Below, piece after piece: positions 13,970-35,841 of a DNA stretch of 64,000 bases (its first letter is position 1; the number at the start of each line of letters is the position of its first letter). This stretch comes from Arthrobacter sp. SLBN-112 (lineage in GTDB: Bacteria > Actinomycetota > Actinomycetes > Actinomycetales > Micrococcaceae), in NCBI RefSeq assembly GCF_030944625.1, contig NZ_JAUSXY010000001.1, positions 3,410,001 to 3,474,000 on the forward strand, given 5' to 3'. The notes under the pieces are model-generated. The model worked only from the letters and a program-made list of their open reading frames with translations, was not told the DNA's origin and searched no databases. The translations under genes were made by a program, and so were the position numbers.

Positions 13970-16900
13970 TCAGTGCGACACTGCCACGCGATGCCCGGGC
14001 TGCCCGGCAGCGGCCGGAAGTTCCAGCCGGGCGTCGTCGGCGGCAATGTCAGCCCCGTTGTGGGTGACCAGGATGACCGTACGGTCCCGCAGCCCCCTGC
14101 GAAGGTCCGCCAGCATGGCTGCGGCCGCTTCCGCGTCCAGGTGGGCGGTGGGTTCGTCCAGCAGGATCACGTCCGCACCGGTCAGCAGCGTCCGCGCAAC
14201 GGCCAGGCGCTGGCGCTCGCCGCCGCTGAGGAAGGCACCGCCAGGGCCGATCCGGGTGTCCAGGCCGGCGGGCAGTCGGCCTGCCAGCCCGGTGAGTCCG
14301 ACGGCGGCCAGCACGGCATCCAATTCAGCGTCACCGGCCGGCAGTTCACCGTTCCCCGCAGGCCGCCCCAGCAGCAGGTTGCCACGGATGGTGGAATCGA
14401 AGAGGTGGGCCTCCTGCGGGCACCAGGCCGCACGTCCGGAGACCTGTGCCCGCCCCGCCGCCGGCGCCAGGAATCCAAGCAGGACCGAGAGCAGGGTGGA
14501 TTTTCCCGAACCGGACGGACCGCTGACAACCAACCAGCGCCCTGGCTCTGCCACGGCGTCCAGCCCTGTGAAGACCGGGGGTCCATCCGGCCATGCTGCG
14601 GCCAGGTCCACCAGGGCAATGCCTGGCGCACCGCGGTCCCGGCCGGGGAGGGCTTGCAGCCCGCCGGTGTCGCCGTCCGGGGAAGCCAGGCGCGCCCCGT
14701 GTCCTGACGGACCACCGTCCAGGGCGCCGGACTCCCCCACCCGCCGCAGGACCTCGCGGAGGGCCGGGAACTGGCGGACCGCCGTCGTCATGGCTGCGTA
14801 CGGTTCCACCAGCGCCAGCAGCAAGAGGACCACCACGGCTGCCGTGGCCGGGGCAACGCGGCCCGCGAGGACGTCGGGGGCCGCCAGCCAGGCAGCGGCC
14901 AGTGCGGCGGCTCCGCAGCCGGCGGTGGCAACGGCGTGTCCCAGCCCGTCGGCCCAGGCGGAGCGCCGGGAGGCGTGCGTGGCGTCCCGGTCCTCCGCCC
15001 GGAGTGCCGCGAGCACATGCGGTGCCAGTCCATTTGCGTGCAGTTCGGCCCGGGCGTCCAGTGCGGCCGCTATCCGCCGCAGGACGCCGGAGCGCAGGGA
15101 CTGCTCAGCGGTGGCCGACCGCCGGTCCCCCCACAGAGCCGCCGCAGGCGCGAGCAGCAGGCCGGCGGCAGCCGCGCCCATCACGGCGGGCAGGGCAGCG
15201 GGCACCAGGACCCCGGTGGCGGCCAGGGCCAGGACGGACACCGCGAGCGCCGTGAAGGGCGGCAGGACTACGCGCGGCAGGAGGTCGCGGATGGTGTCGA
15301 CGTCGTCAATCACCGTTCCCAGCACGTTGCCGCCCTGCAGGAGCCGGCGCAGGGACAGGGCCCTGCGGCTCAGGGATTCCCAGAGCCTGCCGCGGAGGCG
15401 CGTGAGGGCGGCGAAGACGGCATCGTGGAGCAGCAGCCGTTCCCAGTAGCGGAGGACGGCGCGGCCAATGCCAAAGAACCGGACGCCCACGATGGCGGTC
15501 AGGAGGTAGAGGATGGGCGGCTGTTCGCTGGCCCGGATGATGAGCCAGCCCGAGAGTCCGGACAGCGCGACGGCGAAGATGGCCGCCAAGGTGCCGACGA
15601 CGGCCGCGGCCGCGAATTTGCCGCGTACCGGTGCCAGGAGCGCGGCGAGGAGTCCGGCGGCTCCGGAGGTGGTCCGGGTGGTGCGGTTTGCCGCGTCACC
15701 CGCCGCCACGTCACCCGCCGGGCCGCTGCCGTCGGTGGCCGGGCCGTTGGACGCGGGGTCGCCGGAAGCGGGGTCGCCGGTGGAGGTGCTGGCGAACAGG
15801 CCCGGGGCGAGTTCGGGCACCTGCGGTTCCACAGCCTGTCCGGGACGTGCCACCGGAACCAGCAGGTCCGCAAGGTGCCGGGTGCGCTGGTTGTGGGCCA
15901 CCAGGATGACGGTGACCTGGCCGCGGAGCCTGCGGATGGCGTCCTCCACGATGGCCGCGGACGCGTCGTCCAGGTGCGCAGTTGGCTCATCGAGCAGCAG
16001 GATCGATGCCCCGGCATCAATCCTGGCCAGTCCCCGGGCCAGCGCCACCCGGCGCAGCTCGCCCGGGCTCAGCTCCGCCTGGTGCTTGGCCGCCAGGTGG
16101 CCTGCGCCGGCCCGCTCCAGGCAGCTGCGGGCAGCCTCCTCGGCGGCAAACCGGTCCGGGCCGTGGCCCGGGTCCCGTGTGAGGTACAGCAGCACCTCGT
16201 CCAACACGGTCCCCGCCACCATCACGGGGTGTTGCGGCACCCAGGCAATGGCGCCGCGGTCCAGGCCCCTGATCGATCCGGAGATGCTGGTGCCGTTGCC
16301 GGCGCCGATGGTCCCGGCCAGCACGCCGAGGATGGTGCTCTTGCCTGAGCCGCTGGGGCCGTCCAGCGCGGTGATCCGGTCCTGCGGTGCGGTGAAGGTG
16401 AGGGGGCCGACGGCGGTTCCGGCCCTCCCTGCGTACCGCACCGTCAGGCCGGTGACTTCGAGGGGGGCGCCCGGCCTGCCGGCTTTGGCGGCAGGCAGCG
16501 GTGCCGCCTCGGGTGCTCCGGTCACCGCCGCGGCTTCGGTCAGCGCCACCCGGCCGTCGTCGCTGGCGTGGTGGGCGGTGCCCAGCTCGCGGAGCGGGAG
16601 GTAGCAGTCCGGTGCCAGGATCAGTGCCAGCAGGCCCGCCTCCAGCGGCATGTCGCCGTGGACCAGGCGGACGCCGATGAACACCGCCACCACTGCCACC
16701 GAGATGGTGGCGATGAGTTCCAGGGCCAGCGCGGAGAGGAACGCGGTGCGGAGGGTGCCCATGGTGCGGGAGCGGTATTCCTCGGACATCTCTTCCAGGG
16801 CCTTGCGCTGGGCAGTGGCGCGGCCCAGGCCCACCAGGACCGGCAGGCCCTTGGCGAGTTCGAGCATGTGCGCGGACAACCGTGCCAGCGACGCCTGGGC

Positions 16901-17441
16901 CTGGCGCACGCTGTCCTCGGTGTAGCGGCCTATCAGCACCATGAAAACCGGGATCAGCGGCACCGTGAGCACGATGACCACCGCGCTCACCCAGTCCGCG
17001 AAGAGGATCCGAGCACCCAGCAGCAGCGGGATGGCCGCGCAGTTGACCAGTGCCCGGCAGGAACTGGGTGTAGTAGCTGTCCAGTGCGTCCAGGCCGCGG
17101 GTTGCCAGCACCGCCAGGCCGCCGTCGCCGGGCCCGGATCCGCGGACGCCGGTGCGGAGGGCATGCTCCAGCAGCCCGGCGCGCAGCTCTTCCTTCACCC
17201 CAAAGGCGGCGCGGCGGGCAGCGACCGCCTGTCCCCAGACGGTCAGGGACCTCACCAGGACGCCGATCAGTCCGGCGGCGATCTGGGTCCCCCACGCGGG
17301 GCTCCCGGCAACCAGTCCGGCCAGGACGGACGCCACCGCCTGGCCGATCAGGACCAGGGACAATGCCTTGAGCGCTGCGAGGACCCCCAGCCAGTAGATG
17401 GCGGAACGGGTGGCCGGGCCGGCGGGGAACGTTGGCCGCAC
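13970..17441 (-). pseudogene. cydDC: CydDC fused ABC exporter for cytochrome bd assembly, with one frameshift
   Basis: Two frames together make about 1156 residues: a CydD half (membrane helices, GPSGSGKST, LSPGE, ILLLDEPT) joined by a Gly/Ala/Asp-rich linker to a CydC half (GPSGSGKST, LSGGE, VILLDEPT). E. coli uses two genes; a single fused gene occurs in actinobacteria. CydDC exports thiols and is needed to assemble cytochrome bd. The GTG start at 17439-17441 lies one base after the cydB stop. The N-terminal frame is sound up to LDALDSYYTQFLPG and the other frame takes over at ALVNCAAIPLLLGARILFADW; removing one C from 17053-17055 joins them. A real lesion would probably disable the oxidase, so a base-calling error needs to be excluded. 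Confidence 0.85.
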
Positions 17442-17442
17442 G

Positions 17443-18492
17443 TCAGCCCTTGGTGGTGAACGCCTTGGCGGCCACCGCCGGGAGGAAGCTGTGGGCTTCC
17501 GGGATGTGGTCGGCGCTGACGCGGCGGCGGAAGACCCAGTAGGTCCAGGCCTGGTATGCGATCACCAGGGGAAGGCCAAGGGCGGCGACGATGCTCATCA
17601 GGCCCAGGGTGTAATCCGAGGAGGAGGCGTTGGAGATGGTCAGGTCAAAGGCGCTGTCCAGCGTGGAGGGCAGCACCACCGGAAACACGGCGCCGAAGAT
17701 GGCAGCGGTTCCCAGCACCAGGAAGGCGCCCATTGCCAGGAACGCCCGGCCCTCGGAACCGGCCCGGGCCAGCAGCCACGCGATAACGGCCGCAGCCACT
17801 GCCAGCAGGACGGCGGCCCAGGTCCAGGGCTTGCCGTCCATGAACTGGACGGCAAGGGCCCACGCTGCGATCGGCAGCAGCAGGAACGGCAGGAACCGCA
17901 CGAACCACCGGCGCGCACGGTGCCGTACCTCGCCGTCGGTCTTCAGGGCCAGGAACGCCAGGGCGTGCAGCAGGGAGAATCCCACCACGGCCGCACCGCC
18001 CAGCAGGGCGTAGCCGCTGAACCAGGCCAGGGGGCCGCCTACCCGGTCGCCGTTGGCGTTCAGCGGCAGGCCGGTGGTGGTCAGGGCCAGGGCGGCGCCC
18101 ACGCCGAAGGCCGCGAAGAAGGACCCCAGCGCAATCGCCCAGTCCCACCGGTTCCGCCAGCTGTCGGTGTCCACCTTGCCGCGGTATTCGAAGGCCACGG
18201 CACGGAAGATCAGGGCCAGCAGGACCACCAGCAGGGGCAGGTAGAGCGCGGAGAACAGGGAGGCGTACCAGAGCGGGAAGGCCGCGAAGGTTGCGCCGCC
18301 GGCGGTCAAGAGCCACACCTCGTTGCCGTCCCAGACGGGTCCGACTGTATTCAGGAGCACCCGGCGCTCGGTGTTGTTGCGGGCGAAGATCTTCATCAGC
18401 ATCCCGACGCCCAGGTCGAAGCCCTCCAGGAAGAGGTAGCCGGTCCAAAGCACCGCGATGGCGATGAACCAGATGGTGGGAAGCAGTTCCAT
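17443..18492 (-). CDS. cydB: Cytochrome bd ubiquinol/menaquinol oxidase subunit II
   Basis: A 349-residue membrane protein with about nine helices, beginning MELLPTIWFIAIAVLWTGYLFLEGFDLGVGML, the signature N-terminus of CydB, and containing NTVGPVWDGNEVWLL, the family's conserved loop. With CydA it forms the high-affinity terminal oxidase that reduces oxygen without pumping protons. I start it at ATG 18490-18492; the frame is open to 18612 but that part overlaps cydA and has no membrane character. It lies 43 bases after cydA and one base before cydDC, so it is the middle gene of the cydA-cydB-cydDC operon. Confidence 0.95.
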   Translation of the reverse strand: MELLPTIWFIAIAVLWTGYLFLEGFDLGVGMLMKIFARNNTERRVLLNTVGPVWDGNEVWLLTAGGATFAAFPLWYASLFSALYLPLLVVLLALIFRAVAFEYRGKVDTDSWRNRWDWAIALGSFFAAFGVGAALALTTTGLPLNANGDRVGGPLAWFSGYALLGGAAVVGFSLLHALAFLALKTDGEVRHRARRWFVRFLPFLLLPIAAWALAVQFMDGKPWTWAAVLLAVAAAVIAWLLARAGSEGRAFLAMGAFLVLGTAAIFGAVFPVVLPSTLDSAFDLTISNASSSDYTLGLMSIVAALGLPLVIAYQAWTYWVFRRRVSADHIPEAHSFLPAVAAKAFTTKG

Positions 18493-18535: not shown

Positions 18536-20140
18536 CTAGTAGGCGAAGGCCAGGACGTCGTCGGCAGGTTTGGCTTCCCCGGCGCCACCGGCGCCGGGGG
18601 TTTGGTCTTCATTTTCGTCCGCCGGTGCGTGGGCGAGTTCGGGCATCGCGGAGACTACGCCGCCCCGGATGTATTTCACCAGCAGTTTCACTTCCACCAC
18701 CAGCAGGACTGCGTAGACGGCGGTCAGCGTCACCAGGGAAGCGATGAGCTCCCCCGCGGAGACCCCCGGTGAAACGGCGGCAGCGGTGAACATGAACACC
18801 TGGTCGATGCCGCTGGGGTCCGGGTTGGGGGCCACGACGAACGGCTGGCGGCCCATCTCGGTGAAGATCCAGCCGGCGGCGTTGGCGCCAAACGGTGCCA
18901 GGATGCCGAACACCGCCAGGCGCATCAGCCAGCGTGATTCCGGCACCGTTCCCTTGCGGGTGATCCAGAGTGCCACCAGCGCAGCCAGCGCGGCGAGGCC
19001 GCCAAAGCCGATCATCATCCGGAAGCCCCAGTAGGTGACTTCCATGACTGGGACGTACTGGATCTCCTGGCCGGCGCGGTCCCCGTAGATCGGGTTGTCC
19101 GGCAGGGTGGTTCCGTATTTCTCTTTGTACTCGGGCAGCAGGCTGTTGACGCCCTTCACCTCGGTGGTGAAGTCACCCTTGGCCAGGAAGGAGAGGATGC
19201 CGGGGACTTCGATCACCGCCACGACGTCGTCGCAGTTCTTGGAGCCCACGTTGCCGACGCTCAGGACGGAGAAGCCCGTGCCGTCGTGGCAGGCGGCCTC
19301 GGCGGCGGCCATCTTCATGGGCTGCTGCTGGAACATGAGCTTGCCCTGGAGGTCGCCGGTGACGGCGGTGCCCGCGAACGAGATCATGGCCACCACGGCG
19401 CCGATGCGCAGGGACCGGATCCACACGCTGTAGTCGGTGCGGTCGCGGCCGGGGATGCGGGCGTCCGCACCGGGGATGACCCGGCCGTCGGCACCCACGG
19501 CGTCGACGCCGTCGTGCCGCCTCCGCCACAGGTGGTACCAGGCGATGCCAAGGAGGAAGCCGCCGGCAACGGCGAGGGCGCCGAACAAGGTGTGCGGGAC
19601 GGCCACCAGGGCAGTGTTGTTGGTGAACACGGCCCAGGCATCGGTCATGACGGGCCGGCCGTTCACCATTTCCACGCCCACCGGGTGCTGCATCCAGCTG
19701 TTGGCCACGATGATGAAGTAGGCGGAGAGGGCTGAGCCGATGACGGCCACCCAGAGGCACGCGAGGTGGATCGCCGGCTTGAGCTGTTTCCAGCCGAAGA
19801 TCCACAGCCCCAGGAAGGTGGACTCGACGAAAAAGGCCAGGAGGGCTTCCAGTGCCAGTGGGGCGCCAAAGACGTCGCCCACGAACCGGCTGTACTCGCT
19901 CCACGCCATGCCGAACTGGAACTCCTGCACGATGCCGGTGGCGACCCCCATGATGAAGTTGATGAGGAAGAGCTTCCCCCAGAACTTGGTCATCCGCAGG
20001 TACTCAGGCTTGCCGGTCCGGTGCCAGGCGGTCTGGATCACGGCTACCACCAGGCCCAGGCCGATGGTCAGGGGCACCATCATGAAGTGGTAGACGGTGG
20101 TGATGCCGAATTGCCAGCGTGCGATTTCCAAGGCGTCCAT
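18536..20140 (-). CDS. cydA: Cytochrome bd ubiquinol/menaquinol oxidase subunit I
   Basis: A 534-residue membrane protein carrying the quinol site and the three hemes. His18 (TTVYHFMMVP) and His183 (VAVPHTLFGA) correspond to the E. coli heme ligands, the EMGRQPFVV block holds the Met ligand of heme b558, and Glu98 and Glu106 (APLALEALLAFFVEST) match the conserved pair of the proton path. The periplasmic Q-loop is of the short type. The gene heads the cyd operon. Two BlaI-type palindromes lie 29-69 bases before its start codon, suggesting repression by the divergently encoded BlaI-family regulator. Confidence 0.95.
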   Translation of the reverse strand: MDALEIARWQFGITTVYHFMMVPLTIGLGLVVAVIQTAWHRTGKPEYLRMTKFWGKLFLINFIMGVATGIVQEFQFGMAWSEYSRFVGDVFGAPLALEALLAFFVESTFLGLWIFGWKQLKPAIHLACLWVAVIGSALSAYFIIVANSWMQHPVGVEMVNGRPVMTDAWAVFTNNTALVAVPHTLFGALAVAGGFLLGIAWYHLWRRRHDGVDAVGADGRVIPGADARIPGRDRTDYSVWIRSLRIGAVVAMISFAGTAVTGDLQGKLMFQQQPMKMAAAEAACHDGTGFSVLSVGNVGSKNCDDVVAVIEVPGILSFLAKGDFTTEVKGVNSLLPEYKEKYGTTLPDNPIYGDRAGQEIQYVPVMEVTYWGFRMMIGFGGLAALAALVALWITRKGTVPESRWLMRLAVFGILAPFGANAAGWIFTEMGRQPFVVAPNPDPSGIDQVFMFTAAAVSPGVSAGELIASLVTLTAVYAVLLVVEVKLLVKYIRGGVVSAMPELAHAPADENEDQTPGAGGAGEAKPADDVLAFAY

Positions 20141-20168: not shown

Positions 20169-20185
20169 TTCTACGCTCCGTAGAA
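20169..20185. promoter_or_regulatory. BlaI-type operator 1 (cydA-proximal)
   Basis: TTCTACGCTCCGTAGAA has exact TTCTAC/GTAGAA arms around five bases. It lies 29 bases before the cydA start codon, so a bound repressor would block the cydA transcript. Confidence 0.7.
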
Positions 20186-20192
20186 CTGTAAC

Positions 20193-20209
20193 TTCTACAC
20201 AGTGTAGAA
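20193..20209. promoter_or_regulatory. BlaI-type operator 2
   Basis: TTCTACACAGTGTAGAA is a perfect 8-bp-arm palindrome centred 24 bp from operator 1. It contains the TACA...TGTA core known from BlaI/MecI/CopY operators. On the minus strand it includes TACACT, a possible -10 for cydA. Confidence 0.75.
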
Positions 20210-20281
20210 CATTGGCGGTGGCGGCGAAAAACCATCTGCCCCTCCCCTAGGATGGCGCGTCACTGCCCGACGCGCCAGATG

Positions 20282-20298
20282 TTCTACCATATGTAGAA
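20282..20298. promoter_or_regulatory. BlaI-type operator 3 (blaI side)
   Basis: TTCTACCATATGTAGAA has the same TTCTAC-N5-GTAGAA arms as the other two. It lies 104 bases before the blaI start codon, which suggests autoregulation of blaI and the M56 gene. Confidence 0.7.
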
Positions 20299-20401: not shown

Positions 20402-20785
20402 ATGGCTAGTCTTGGTGAACTGGAACGGGCGGTCATGGACCTGCTCTGGGCGGGCCAGGAAGCGGCTACGGCCAACACCCTGAGGGACCAGCTGGCGCGT
20501 GCGTCGGCGGCACAGGGCGGGGCGGGCCACGAAGGCAAGGAACTGGCTGTCACGACGGTACTCACCGTACTCTCCCGCCTGGAAAAGAAAGGGCTGGTGG
20601 AACGCGAACGCGGCACCCGCCCGCACCGCTACCAGGCCGTGTCCAGCCGTGCCGACCACACTGCCGAACTCATGCACGAGGTCCTTGGTTCAGCACCTGA
20701 CCGCGAGGCTGTCCTCGCCCGCTTCATTGGATCCGTCTCCGAAGGTGAAGCCGCTACGCTGCGCAAACTGCTTGGTCACCTCTAG
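20402..20785 (+). CDS. blaI: BlaI/MecI/CopY-family transcriptional repressor
   Basis: A 127-residue winged-helix protein: GELERAVMDLLWAGQEAATANTLRDQL, then VTTVLTVLSRLEKKGLVERERGTRPHRY, the recognition helix and wing of BlaI-type repressors, then a dimerising C-terminal helix pair. Such repressors bind palindromic TACA/TGTA operators and are released when cleaved or modified after a signal from an M56 membrane peptidase. The next gene, six bases on, encodes such a peptidase. Three matching palindromes lie between this gene and cydA. A role in beta-lactam response cannot be assumed, since no beta-lactamase gene is near; control of the cyd operon is the inference from position. Confidence 0.88.
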   Translation: MASLGELERAVMDLLWAGQEAATANTLRDQLARASAAQGGAGHEGKELAVTTVLTVLSRLEKKGLVERERGTRPHRYQAVSSRADHTAELMHEVLGSAPDREAVLARFIGSVSEGEAATLRKLLGHL

Positions 20786-20791
20786 CAGACC

Positions 20792-21784
20792 ATGTTCTGG
20801 GCCTCGTACCTGCTGGCGGTCTTTGCGATAGTCCTTGCCTGGCCGGTGCCGATCCTCCTGTCGCGGGCACAATGGCCGGCAAGGTCGCCGTTCACGGCGA
20901 TGCTGCTGTGGCAGGCGATCGCACTTGCAGGTGGCCTGTCCATGATCGGCGCCATGCTGGTCTACGGCCTGGAACCGATCGGCGACAACCTGGTTGCCGG
21001 CCTCCGGGCCCTTGCCGGCATGGTGCTTTTCAGCGCCCCCACCACCGCACTGGGGTTCTGGCACATCTTCGCCTTGTCCGCCGCGGCCCTGCTGACCGCC
21101 CACCTGGTTTTCACCCTGCTGCTCACGTACTACAAGATCCAGCGGCAGCGCCGGCGGCACCGCGAGCTCCTGGCCCTGCTCGCCTCACCGTCCGGGCAGG
21201 GAACCGGAACGCTGGTCATCAGCCACGAGTCCCCGGTGGCGTACTGCCTGCCGGGTGGGGCCCGCTCGGTGACCGTCCTGTCGGACGGCTTAATGGCCGC
21301 CCTCGAACCTGCCGAACTGCGCGCAGTGCTCATTCACGAGAACGCGCACCTGAGCCAACGGCACCACCTGCTGCTCTGGGCCTTCGCCGCCTGGCGGCAG
21401 GCGCTGCCCTGGCTGCCCACCACCCGGCTTGCACAGGAGTCGGTCAACTCACTCATCGAAATGCTGGCCGACGATGTCGCCCTGCGGACCGAAAGCAAAG
21501 CGACCCTGATCAAGGCCATCGCCATCGTCGCCAGCGGCTCGGCGGCCAATTCCGGCACCGGTAACATTCGGCCATCCTCACCCAGCCTGGCGTTGTCCGG
21601 GCTGGAGGCCGCCTCCGTGGGTCCGGGCTCGGACGCGGTCCGGACCGCGGCGTCCAGGGTCAGCCGCCTGTTGACGCCGCAACCCCAGTTGCCGGCCGCC
21701 GCCCGCAGTGCCGTCCTGGCCGGCTGCATCCTGCTGCTCGCACTGCCGACTGCTTTGCTCGTGGTTCCGGGGCTGCTCGGCTGA
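20792..21784 (+). CDS. M56-family membrane metallopeptidase (BlaR1/MecR1-like, without sensor domain)
   Basis: A 330-residue protein with hydrophobic segments near 3-25, 35-58, 70-115 and 305-330, and the zinc motif HENAH at residues 182-186; EMLADDVAL further on likely supplies the third ligand. M56 peptidases relay signals to BlaI-type repressors. No C-terminal penicillin-binding sensor domain is present, unlike BlaR1, so what it senses is unknown. It follows blaI by six bases and was surely co-transcribed with it. It converges with parE across the 44-bp repeats. Confidence 0.85.
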   Translation: MFWASYLLAVFAIVLAWPVPILLSRAQWPARSPFTAMLLWQAIALAGGLSMIGAMLVYGLEPIGDNLVAGLRALAGMVLFSAPTTALGFWHIFALSAAALLTAHLVFTLLLTYYKIQRQRRRHRELLALLASPSGQGTGTLVISHESPVAYCLPGGARSVTVLSDGLMAALEPAELRAVLIHENAHLSQRHHLLLWAFAAWRQALPWLPTTRLAQESVNSLIEMLADDVALRTESKATLIKAIAIVASGSAANSGTGNIRPSSPSLALSGLEAASVGPGSDAVRTAASRVSRLLTPQPQLPAAARSAVLAGCILLLALPTALLVVPGLLG

Positions 21785-35384: not shown

Positions 35385-35472
35385 CGCCGTTTAACCCGGC
35401 GCACTATACCTGCCGCCCGGCGCCAGCGTGGTTTTGCTACGTGGCGTAGAACTGACTGGCTAAGCTGGGTCC

Positions 35473-35841
35473 ATGACCATACTTTTCTACATCCTGCTTT
35501 TCCTGCACATCGTCGGCGCCTCCATGGTGGTGGGTATCTGGATCGCCAACATGAAGACGCCCTCGGTCCACCCCCGTCAGCGTGACGGTGCCTTCGTCCA
35601 GTTGATAACCGGCATCGCCATGATGGGGCTCCTTCCGGTCCTCCACGGCCAGAACCCGGCCGAGTTCGATCCGAACTACGCCAAGCTGGGCATCAAGTTC
35701 GCTGTCGGCCTCGTGGTGGCAGTCCTGGCCGTCATTGGGACACGCAAGGTGAAGAACGGTCAGCCCGTCTCCACCGGCCTCGCCCACGGCGTGGGCGGCC
35801 TGGCCCTGGTCAACGTGGCCATCGCCACCATCTGGCAGTAA
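35473..35841 (+). CDS. Small integral membrane protein
   Basis: A 122-residue protein with about four hydrophobic helices (MTILFYILLFLHIVGASMVVGIWIA, FVQLITGIAMMGLLPVL, FAVGLVVAVLAVIG, and a C-terminal ALVNVAIATIW). An early His and a polar middle stretch are visible, but no known motif. The ATG at 35473 follows a short leader. It sits alone between sucB and an OsmC-type gene. I cannot name a function. Confidence 0.75.
   Translation: MTILFYILLFLHIVGASMVVGIWIANMKTPSVHPRQRDGAFVQLITGIAMMGLLPVLHGQNPAEFDPNYAKLGIKFAVGLVVAVLAVIGTRKVKNGQPVSTGLAHGVGGLALVNVAIATIWQ

Follow-up and report, generated by a model that had tools for sequence, protein, structure and literature searches.

The closest described relatives of the system analyzed here are the BlaI/BlaR pair (Rv1846c/Rv1845c) of Mycobacterium tuberculosis and the PetR-PetP pair of Synechocystis. 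As far as the excerpts of these papers go, M. tuberculosis BlaI binds in front of the ATP synthase operon and represses it (PMC12565901), a link that a preliminary description of our locus had drawn on and that is in print (PMC12565901, PMC5473688). The excerpt of PMC5473688 further states, citing Sala 2009, that BlaI binds before the cytochrome bd genes, and that mycobacterial BlaR orthologues have no extracellular sensor. PetR-PetP, a BlaI/BlaR1-type pair, switches electron carriers, and its protease is activated by copper, again according to excerpts (PMC7896320, PMC13421787). Given these mycobacterial and cyanobacterial precedents, control of respiration by the BlaI family is expected in kind. 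The abstract of Sala 2009 reportedly does not list the cytochrome bd genes as BlaI targets, and rv1456c is said to be among the targets in M. tuberculosis. Here, we analyzed a stretch of 64,000 nucleotides of Arthrobacter sp. SLBN-112, referred to as the window, in which a BlaI-type gene stands divergent from the genes of cytochrome bd.

The blaI gene (20402..20785, plus strand) encodes a winged-helix repressor of 127 aa. Its product belongs to the BlaI/MecI family (Pfam PF03965, E 2.2e-20), scoring 73.6 bits against a curated cut-off of 22.6, and is the only BlaI match in its own genome at E 0.001. The nearest solved structure is PDB entry 2g9w (E 9.5e-15, residues 3-126; 43% identity in the alignment), which we take to be that of M. 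tuberculosis BlaI. Six bp past the blaI stop begins a gene for a membrane metalloprotease of the M56/M48 type (330 aa, 20792..21784, plus strand). This protein reaches 21.8 bits with the M56 profile PF05569, below the curated cut-off of 31, and 37.7 bits with the M48 profile PF01435, above the cut-off of 20.3; a comparison with the PDB gave no sequence match. The zinc motif HExxH and a downstream glutamate (H182, E183, H186, and E223) are invariant in 30 proteins, and membrane helices are combined with a metalloprotease fold as in BlaR1-type proteins. Pfam detected no C-terminal extracellular penicillin-binding domain, and the chain terminates in its last helix (302-329), in agreement with the earlier claim that the M56 partner lacks a penicillin sensor domain. 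On the minus strand lie cydA (18536..20140, cytochrome bd subunit I, PF01654, E 8.7e-153), cydB (17443..18492, subunit II, PF02322, E 7.6e-102) and the ABC exporter gene cydDC (13970..17441, two ABC_tran stretches in 13970-17164). The operon had been presented as cydABDC; Pfam confirms cydA and cydB, whereas cydD and cydC are not separate genes but one fused gene, whose frame is broken near 17,020-17,090 in this assembly. Counterpart cydDC pieces share one frame in three other loci (L279, L280, and L285), and the interruption is either a real frameshift or an assembly error.

With cydA starting at 20140 (minus strand) and blaI at 20402 (plus strand), the gap between the two genes measures 261 bp. 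A pattern search of the window recovered three copies of TTCTAC-N5-GTAGAA with exact arms inside this gap, none of them assigned to a strand. The cydA-proximal copy (20169-20185, exact palindrome TTCTACGCTCCGTAGAA) is centred 37 bp from the cydA start. The second cydA site (20193-20209, TTCTACACAGTGTAGAA) is centred 61 bp from that start, lies 24 bp from the first and has perfect 8-bp arms around a single central base. On the blaI side, the third copy (20282-20298, exact, TTCTACCATATGTAGAA) is centred 112 bp from the blaI start. Number, exact arms, coordinates, the one perfect 17-bp palindrome and the arrangement of two copies before cydA and one before blaI were all as the preliminary description had given them. 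A chance origin of the sites was rejected: 300 first-order Markov windows held no exact match, compared to three in the window; the analytic expectation is 1e-4 exact copies per 64 kb (three seen) and 0.007 per genome (seven seen); and the same arms written backwards, used as a reversed control pattern, occur twice in the genome against seven forward copies. The sites are very probably operators of BlaI, putative as such an assignment from sequence must be: the TAC/GTA dyad of the candidate operators would suit a BlaI/MecI dimer, and the sites co-occur with BlaI.

The genome (4.39 Mb, one contig) contains seven exact copies, that is, the three at cydA/blaI and four elsewhere. These remote sites are found 48-91 bp before hmp, hemQ, a phosphoglycerate-mutase-like (PGM) gene and the gene of a 130-aa membrane protein. 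The hmp product is flavohemoglobin-like, a name given by reading together with an NCBIfam score of 310 bits that stays below the cut-off of 432, and hmp adjoins an NsrR-like gene (named by eye). Downstream of its exact site, hemQ is followed by hemH, and the PGM-like gene is followed by TlpA-, CcdA-, ResB- and CcsA-like genes (the last three by eye), a cytochrome c biogenesis operon. Seven further copies carry one mismatch, six of them before genes. Four have clear targets: atpI-atpB of the ATP synthase (AtpI named by eye); qcrC, with the site in the ctaE-qcrC gap about 60 bp upstream of the start of qcrC; an ABC-ABC-ctaA cluster, with the site between it and a SufR-like gene (ctaA confirmed by domain, the others by eye); and a 122-aa membrane protein. 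The last of these sites is the fourth BlaI-type operator candidate of the window (35435..35451, no strand, TGCTACGTGGCGTAGAA), and the gene behind it (35473..35841, plus strand) is a predicted regulon member. Its product is 71% identical to a target in genome G086, and a homologous gene with an exact site is present in G086 and G097. Two other copies stand 204 bp before sucC (domain confirmed) and 78 bp before the gene of a 109-aa membrane protein; the seventh lies within a hemolysin-III-like gene (by eye) and was therefore counted as a miss. The preliminary description had held cyd to be the only large target in reach. This is true locally but not genome-wide, where the site is also found at the genes for ATP synthase, heme, cytochrome c biogenesis, bc1, heme A and flavohemoglobin.

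We compared cydA loci from Arthrobacter, Pseudarthrobacter, Paenarthrobacter, Sinomonas and other genera, taking the best 80 of 593. In all 80 of these named loci, cydA is preceded by two or more exact sites, a third exact site is present in 72, and a divergent blaI-M56 pair lies beside cydA in 77. The earlier suggestion to look for the site before cydA in other Arthrobacter genomes was answered by retention of the sites throughout this set. The two cydA sites are spaced by 23-26 bp in 79 of the 80 loci and by 18 bp in one. Spacers and flanks differ among the loci; since the conservation profile was made from exact matches, it documents this spacer variation and is no independent proof that the arms are fixed. 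Seen from the regulator, 55 of 61 family genomes match BlaI. Each of the best 30 family BlaI loci has an M56 gene and one or more exact sites; 25 of them combine a divergent cydA with at least two exact sites, and five have no cydA and one site.

The number of sites follows the regulator. Exact sites occur in 41 of 41 genomes of the genus (307 in total, 54 for the reversed pattern). Two or more sites are present wherever a family genome has a BlaI orthologue (E 4.5e-30 or better; 52 of 52 genomes), as established for 51 by site count and for G078 via its blaI locus. Six family genomes without a BlaI match have 0, 0, 0, 0, 0, and 1 exact sites, and three with a weaker match have one each; these nine genomes without a (proper) orthologue fall into four genera and therefore do not count as nine independent cases.

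Autoregulation is usual in the BlaI family, and the three clustered sites of the window share one gap. BlaI might hence control its own operon only, with the cydA-side sites being autoregulatory and the remote sites unrelated. However, five loci in which cydA lies apart from blaI (L073, L161, L288, L293, and L345) retain the site pair at cydA. No blaI is found within the 2.5-kb flank of L288, L293 and L345, and in genome G074 the pair accompanies cydA (L073) and blaI (L045) has one site. In genome G081 the pair stands at a cydA whose product is 43% identical to that of the window (L161), and blaI has no exact site; as G081 possesses a BlaI orthologue, autoregulation is not universal. Exact sites also recur before hemQ, hmp, PGM-TlpA and other genes across genera. 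The loci with separated cydA and blaI led us to reject pure autoregulation, to which we assign a next to negligible probability. The sites could instead belong to a respiration regulator of the Rex, Crp or NsrR type, with BlaI as a bystander or target. Patterns of the Rex and Crp type, based on motifs that we presume to be theirs, gave no match near cydA (20169-20298). Moreover, the site number tracks the presence of the BlaI orthologue, and a site stands before blaI in all of the best 30 BlaI loci, including the five without cydA. Thus, ownership by another regulator is quite improbable, even though cydAB is under Rex control in Streptomyces and is activated by Crp in M. smegmatis, according to the excerpt of PMC7739888, and the neighbor of hmp is NsrR-like by eye.

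In 16 genomes, 117 of 127 exact sites were examined; the other ten are the trios at cyd/blaI in G009, G020 and G039 plus a single G051 site 70 bp before blaI. Among the 117, 87 stand before genes for respiration, heme, cytochrome assembly, globin/NO functions or cyd/blaI, a proportion that is a description and no test, because the reference list was drawn from the same loci. The targets are cydA/blaI, hmp, hemQ-hemH, PGM or TlpA, sufR/ABC-ctaA, ctaG, copC, SURF1, sdhC, ctaC, ctaB, atpI, hemA/hemE, a group III truncated globin-like gene (by eye) and qcrC. A further 23 sites precede recurring genes with another or unclear role: 11 belong to the 130-aa protein, 4 to a pyridoxamine-oxidase-like protein, 3 to a 212-aa membrane protein, 2 each to the 122-aa type and to aceA with a membrane protein, and 1 to an LpqE-like protein. 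Seven sites match no listed gene (L150, L153, L160, L168, L171, L070, and L216). The reversed control pattern yielded 10 sites in the same genomes, and none of these 10 loci had a listed neighbor. Of 109 cases measured, 100 had the nearest start 10-130 bp away from the centre of the site. Domains confirmed the target types SURF1, Sdh_cyt, CtaG, chlorite-dismutase-like HemQ, GlutR, COX15-CtaA and CopC, and family matches confirmed heme o synthase, CtaC and QcrC. Pfam had no match for the 130-aa target (L002, 1557-1949; none in NCBIfam either), the AtpI-like, group III globin-like and LpqE-like proteins or the 122-, 109- and 212-aa membrane proteins; the names AtpI, globin and LpqE were assigned by eye. 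In a separate analysis of atpI, a one-mismatch site lay 63-89 bp before the gene in 30 of 30 loci from 29 genomes of the genus, and G048 has an exact site at the ATP synthase. Control of cyd by BlaI, as originally proposed, is strongly supported by the 80 cydA loci, by the loci with separated cydA and by the near-absence of sites where the orthologue is missing; its scope had been drawn too narrowly.

Several observations were made alongside. The 130-aa protein is a site target in 11 of the 16 genomes. A pyridoxamine-oxidase-like flavoprotein (PF12900 in L193) is found behind the operator in L146, L159, L184, L193 and L199. G051 and G081, both of genus g12, have 13-15 exact sites and an enlarged set that includes ctaB, ctaC, CtaG, SURF1, sdhC and aceA. 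Immediately before the hemQ operator in L004 stands a Crp-like sequence of the form TGTGAC-N-TCAC, which we assume to be the Crp motif; it is partly conserved in 25 sequences and is possibly an activator site.

A class-wide search matched BlaI in 63 of 118 genomes. Outside the family, M56 adjoins blaI in 28 of 28 loci, 17 of which have a cydA homologue inside the 1.5-kb flank. The pattern TWCTACN5GTAGWA was found in 30 of the 118 genomes; it gave 28 loci beyond the genus, each from a different genome, of which 10 have cydA beside the site, two more have BlaI-M56 and 16 have neither. In 20 further regions from such genomes, 14 were without a match to the reference list, and three of the remaining six matches were more than 1 kb away. 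Outside the family the motif drifts to TACTAC forms, and most other sites there had no neighbor in the reference list. A loose palindrome scan of the loci, run without a control, is a hint only. In family f20, exact sites are found near a distant cydA homologue (26-30% identity) in L103, L106, L226 and L232, with two to three tandem sites in L103, L106 and L232 and blaI nearby in L103, L106 and L226. On these sequence comparisons, the cyd link is old, and the full regulon is documented for the family only.

The best overall explanation, to which we assign a probability of roughly 0.78, is that BlaI represses a respiratory and heme regulon and that the M56 protease relieves this repression. A BlaI dimer would bind TTCTAC-N5-GTAGAA close upstream of its targets, at two sites before cydA, one at the blaI operon and single sites before hemQ-hemH and the genes for cytochrome c biogenesis, heme A, bc1, ATP synthase and Hmp (NO detoxification). 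The protease, BlaR1-like minus the penicillin sensor, would cut BlaI when respiration through heme-copper oxidases falters; copper or heme shortage, NO and low oxygen are candidate triggers. With BlaI gone, cytochrome bd, Hmp and the assembly genes would all be derepressed at the same time. By analogy, repression is probably the main sign, and removal of BlaI by the protease is likely. As the signal, a failing heme-copper oxidase or copper supply is our first choice, a doubtful one as yet, favored because the targets include copper-linked assembly factors, a copper-free alternative oxidase and NO defence. Copper is as good a candidate as redox or membrane stress.

Two further readings concern what the protease senses and in which direction BlaI acts. 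The pair could be a beta-lactam response system of the staphylococcal type with respiration as a side branch; membership of the BlaI/BlaR1 family would fit, and M. tuberculosis BlaI represses blaC too (excerpt of PMC5473688). Yet the protease stops after its last membrane helix with no penicillin-binding domain, and no beta-lactamase gene was seen behind the seven exact and seven one-mismatch sites of the genome (names partly by eye), so we regard this as very improbable. Less easily set aside, though still unlikely, is a PetR-like dual control, in which BlaI would repress some genes, e.g., cyd, and activate others (heme-copper oxidase, ATP synthase and heme genes), and in which the protease would respond to copper. 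Excerpts report that PetR represses petE and activates petJ and that copper activates PetP (PMC7896320, PMC13421787), that sigC belongs to the BlaI regulon of M. tuberculosis (PMC8265638) and that SigC averts copper starvation (PMC7924339). In addition, the copper-linked CtaG, CopC, CtaC and SURF1 genes carry the site in related genera. The close spacing to the start in most measured cases fits repression but is compatible with activation too. The repressing sign is an analogy, weakened by the fact that PetR, of the BlaI family, also activates petJ (PMC7896320, excerpt).

Going beyond the regulon repressed by BlaI and relieved by the protease, we would suggest, at somewhat less than even odds, that the actinobacterial BlaI-M56 pair is by origin a regulator of the respiratory chain. 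Its protease would sense a failing heme-copper oxidase (copper/heme supply, NO) and free the alternative oxidase, heme and oxidase assembly, ATP synthase and NO defence at once; the mycobacterial beta-lactam use would be secondary, and several small membrane proteins of unknown role would turn out to be novel factors of respiration. Should this hold, a family usually classed with antibiotic resistance would rank among the main regulators of aerobic respiration across a large group of bacteria, through a protease-based switch without a known sensor domain. This would also account for the action of mycobacterial BlaI on ATP synthase and assign the 130-aa (L002), 122-aa (35473-35841) and 212-aa (L015) membrane proteins to respiration. 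In these soil bacteria, a switch of the resistance type looks like one for respiration.

Among the literature matches listed, and as far as their titles and abstract openings go, no work had heme or cytochrome genes under BlaI control except in mycobacteria and cyanobacteria; nor did these matches describe so broad a regulon, its operator or the conserved arrangement of cyd, blaI and M56. Compared to staphylococcal BlaI/MecI-BlaR1/MecR1, the penicillin-binding sensor is missing and no beta-lactamase target was seen. Rex and HrrSA are unrelated to BlaI in protein and motif. In excerpts, Rex of Streptomyces acts on cydAB (PMC7739888) and HrrSA of Corynebacterium bears on terminal oxidases (PMC7337898), and both are to this extent alike in target. 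Of the M. tuberculosis regulon, the ATP synthase operator is present here and a beta-lactamase operator was not seen among the seven exact and seven one-mismatch sites of the genome. The ATP synthase and ABC-ctaA sites parallel the mycobacterial targets rv1303-atp and, reportedly, rv1456c. In contrast to M. tuberculosis, blaI-M56 is divergent from cydA, the sites add hemQ-hemH, hmp and cytochrome c biogenesis, and relatives add ctaB, ctaC, SURF1, sdhC and hemA/hemE. The likeness to PetR-PetP (PMC7896320, PMC13421787) lies in neighboring BlaI and BlaR1-type genes, adjacent here in 30 of 30 family loci and 28 of 28 loci beyond, and in sites at genes of electron transport. While excerpts describe for PetR-PetP a four-protein regulon around the plastocyanin/cytochrome c6 switch with copper as signal, the putative regulon here is the aerobic respiratory apparatus.
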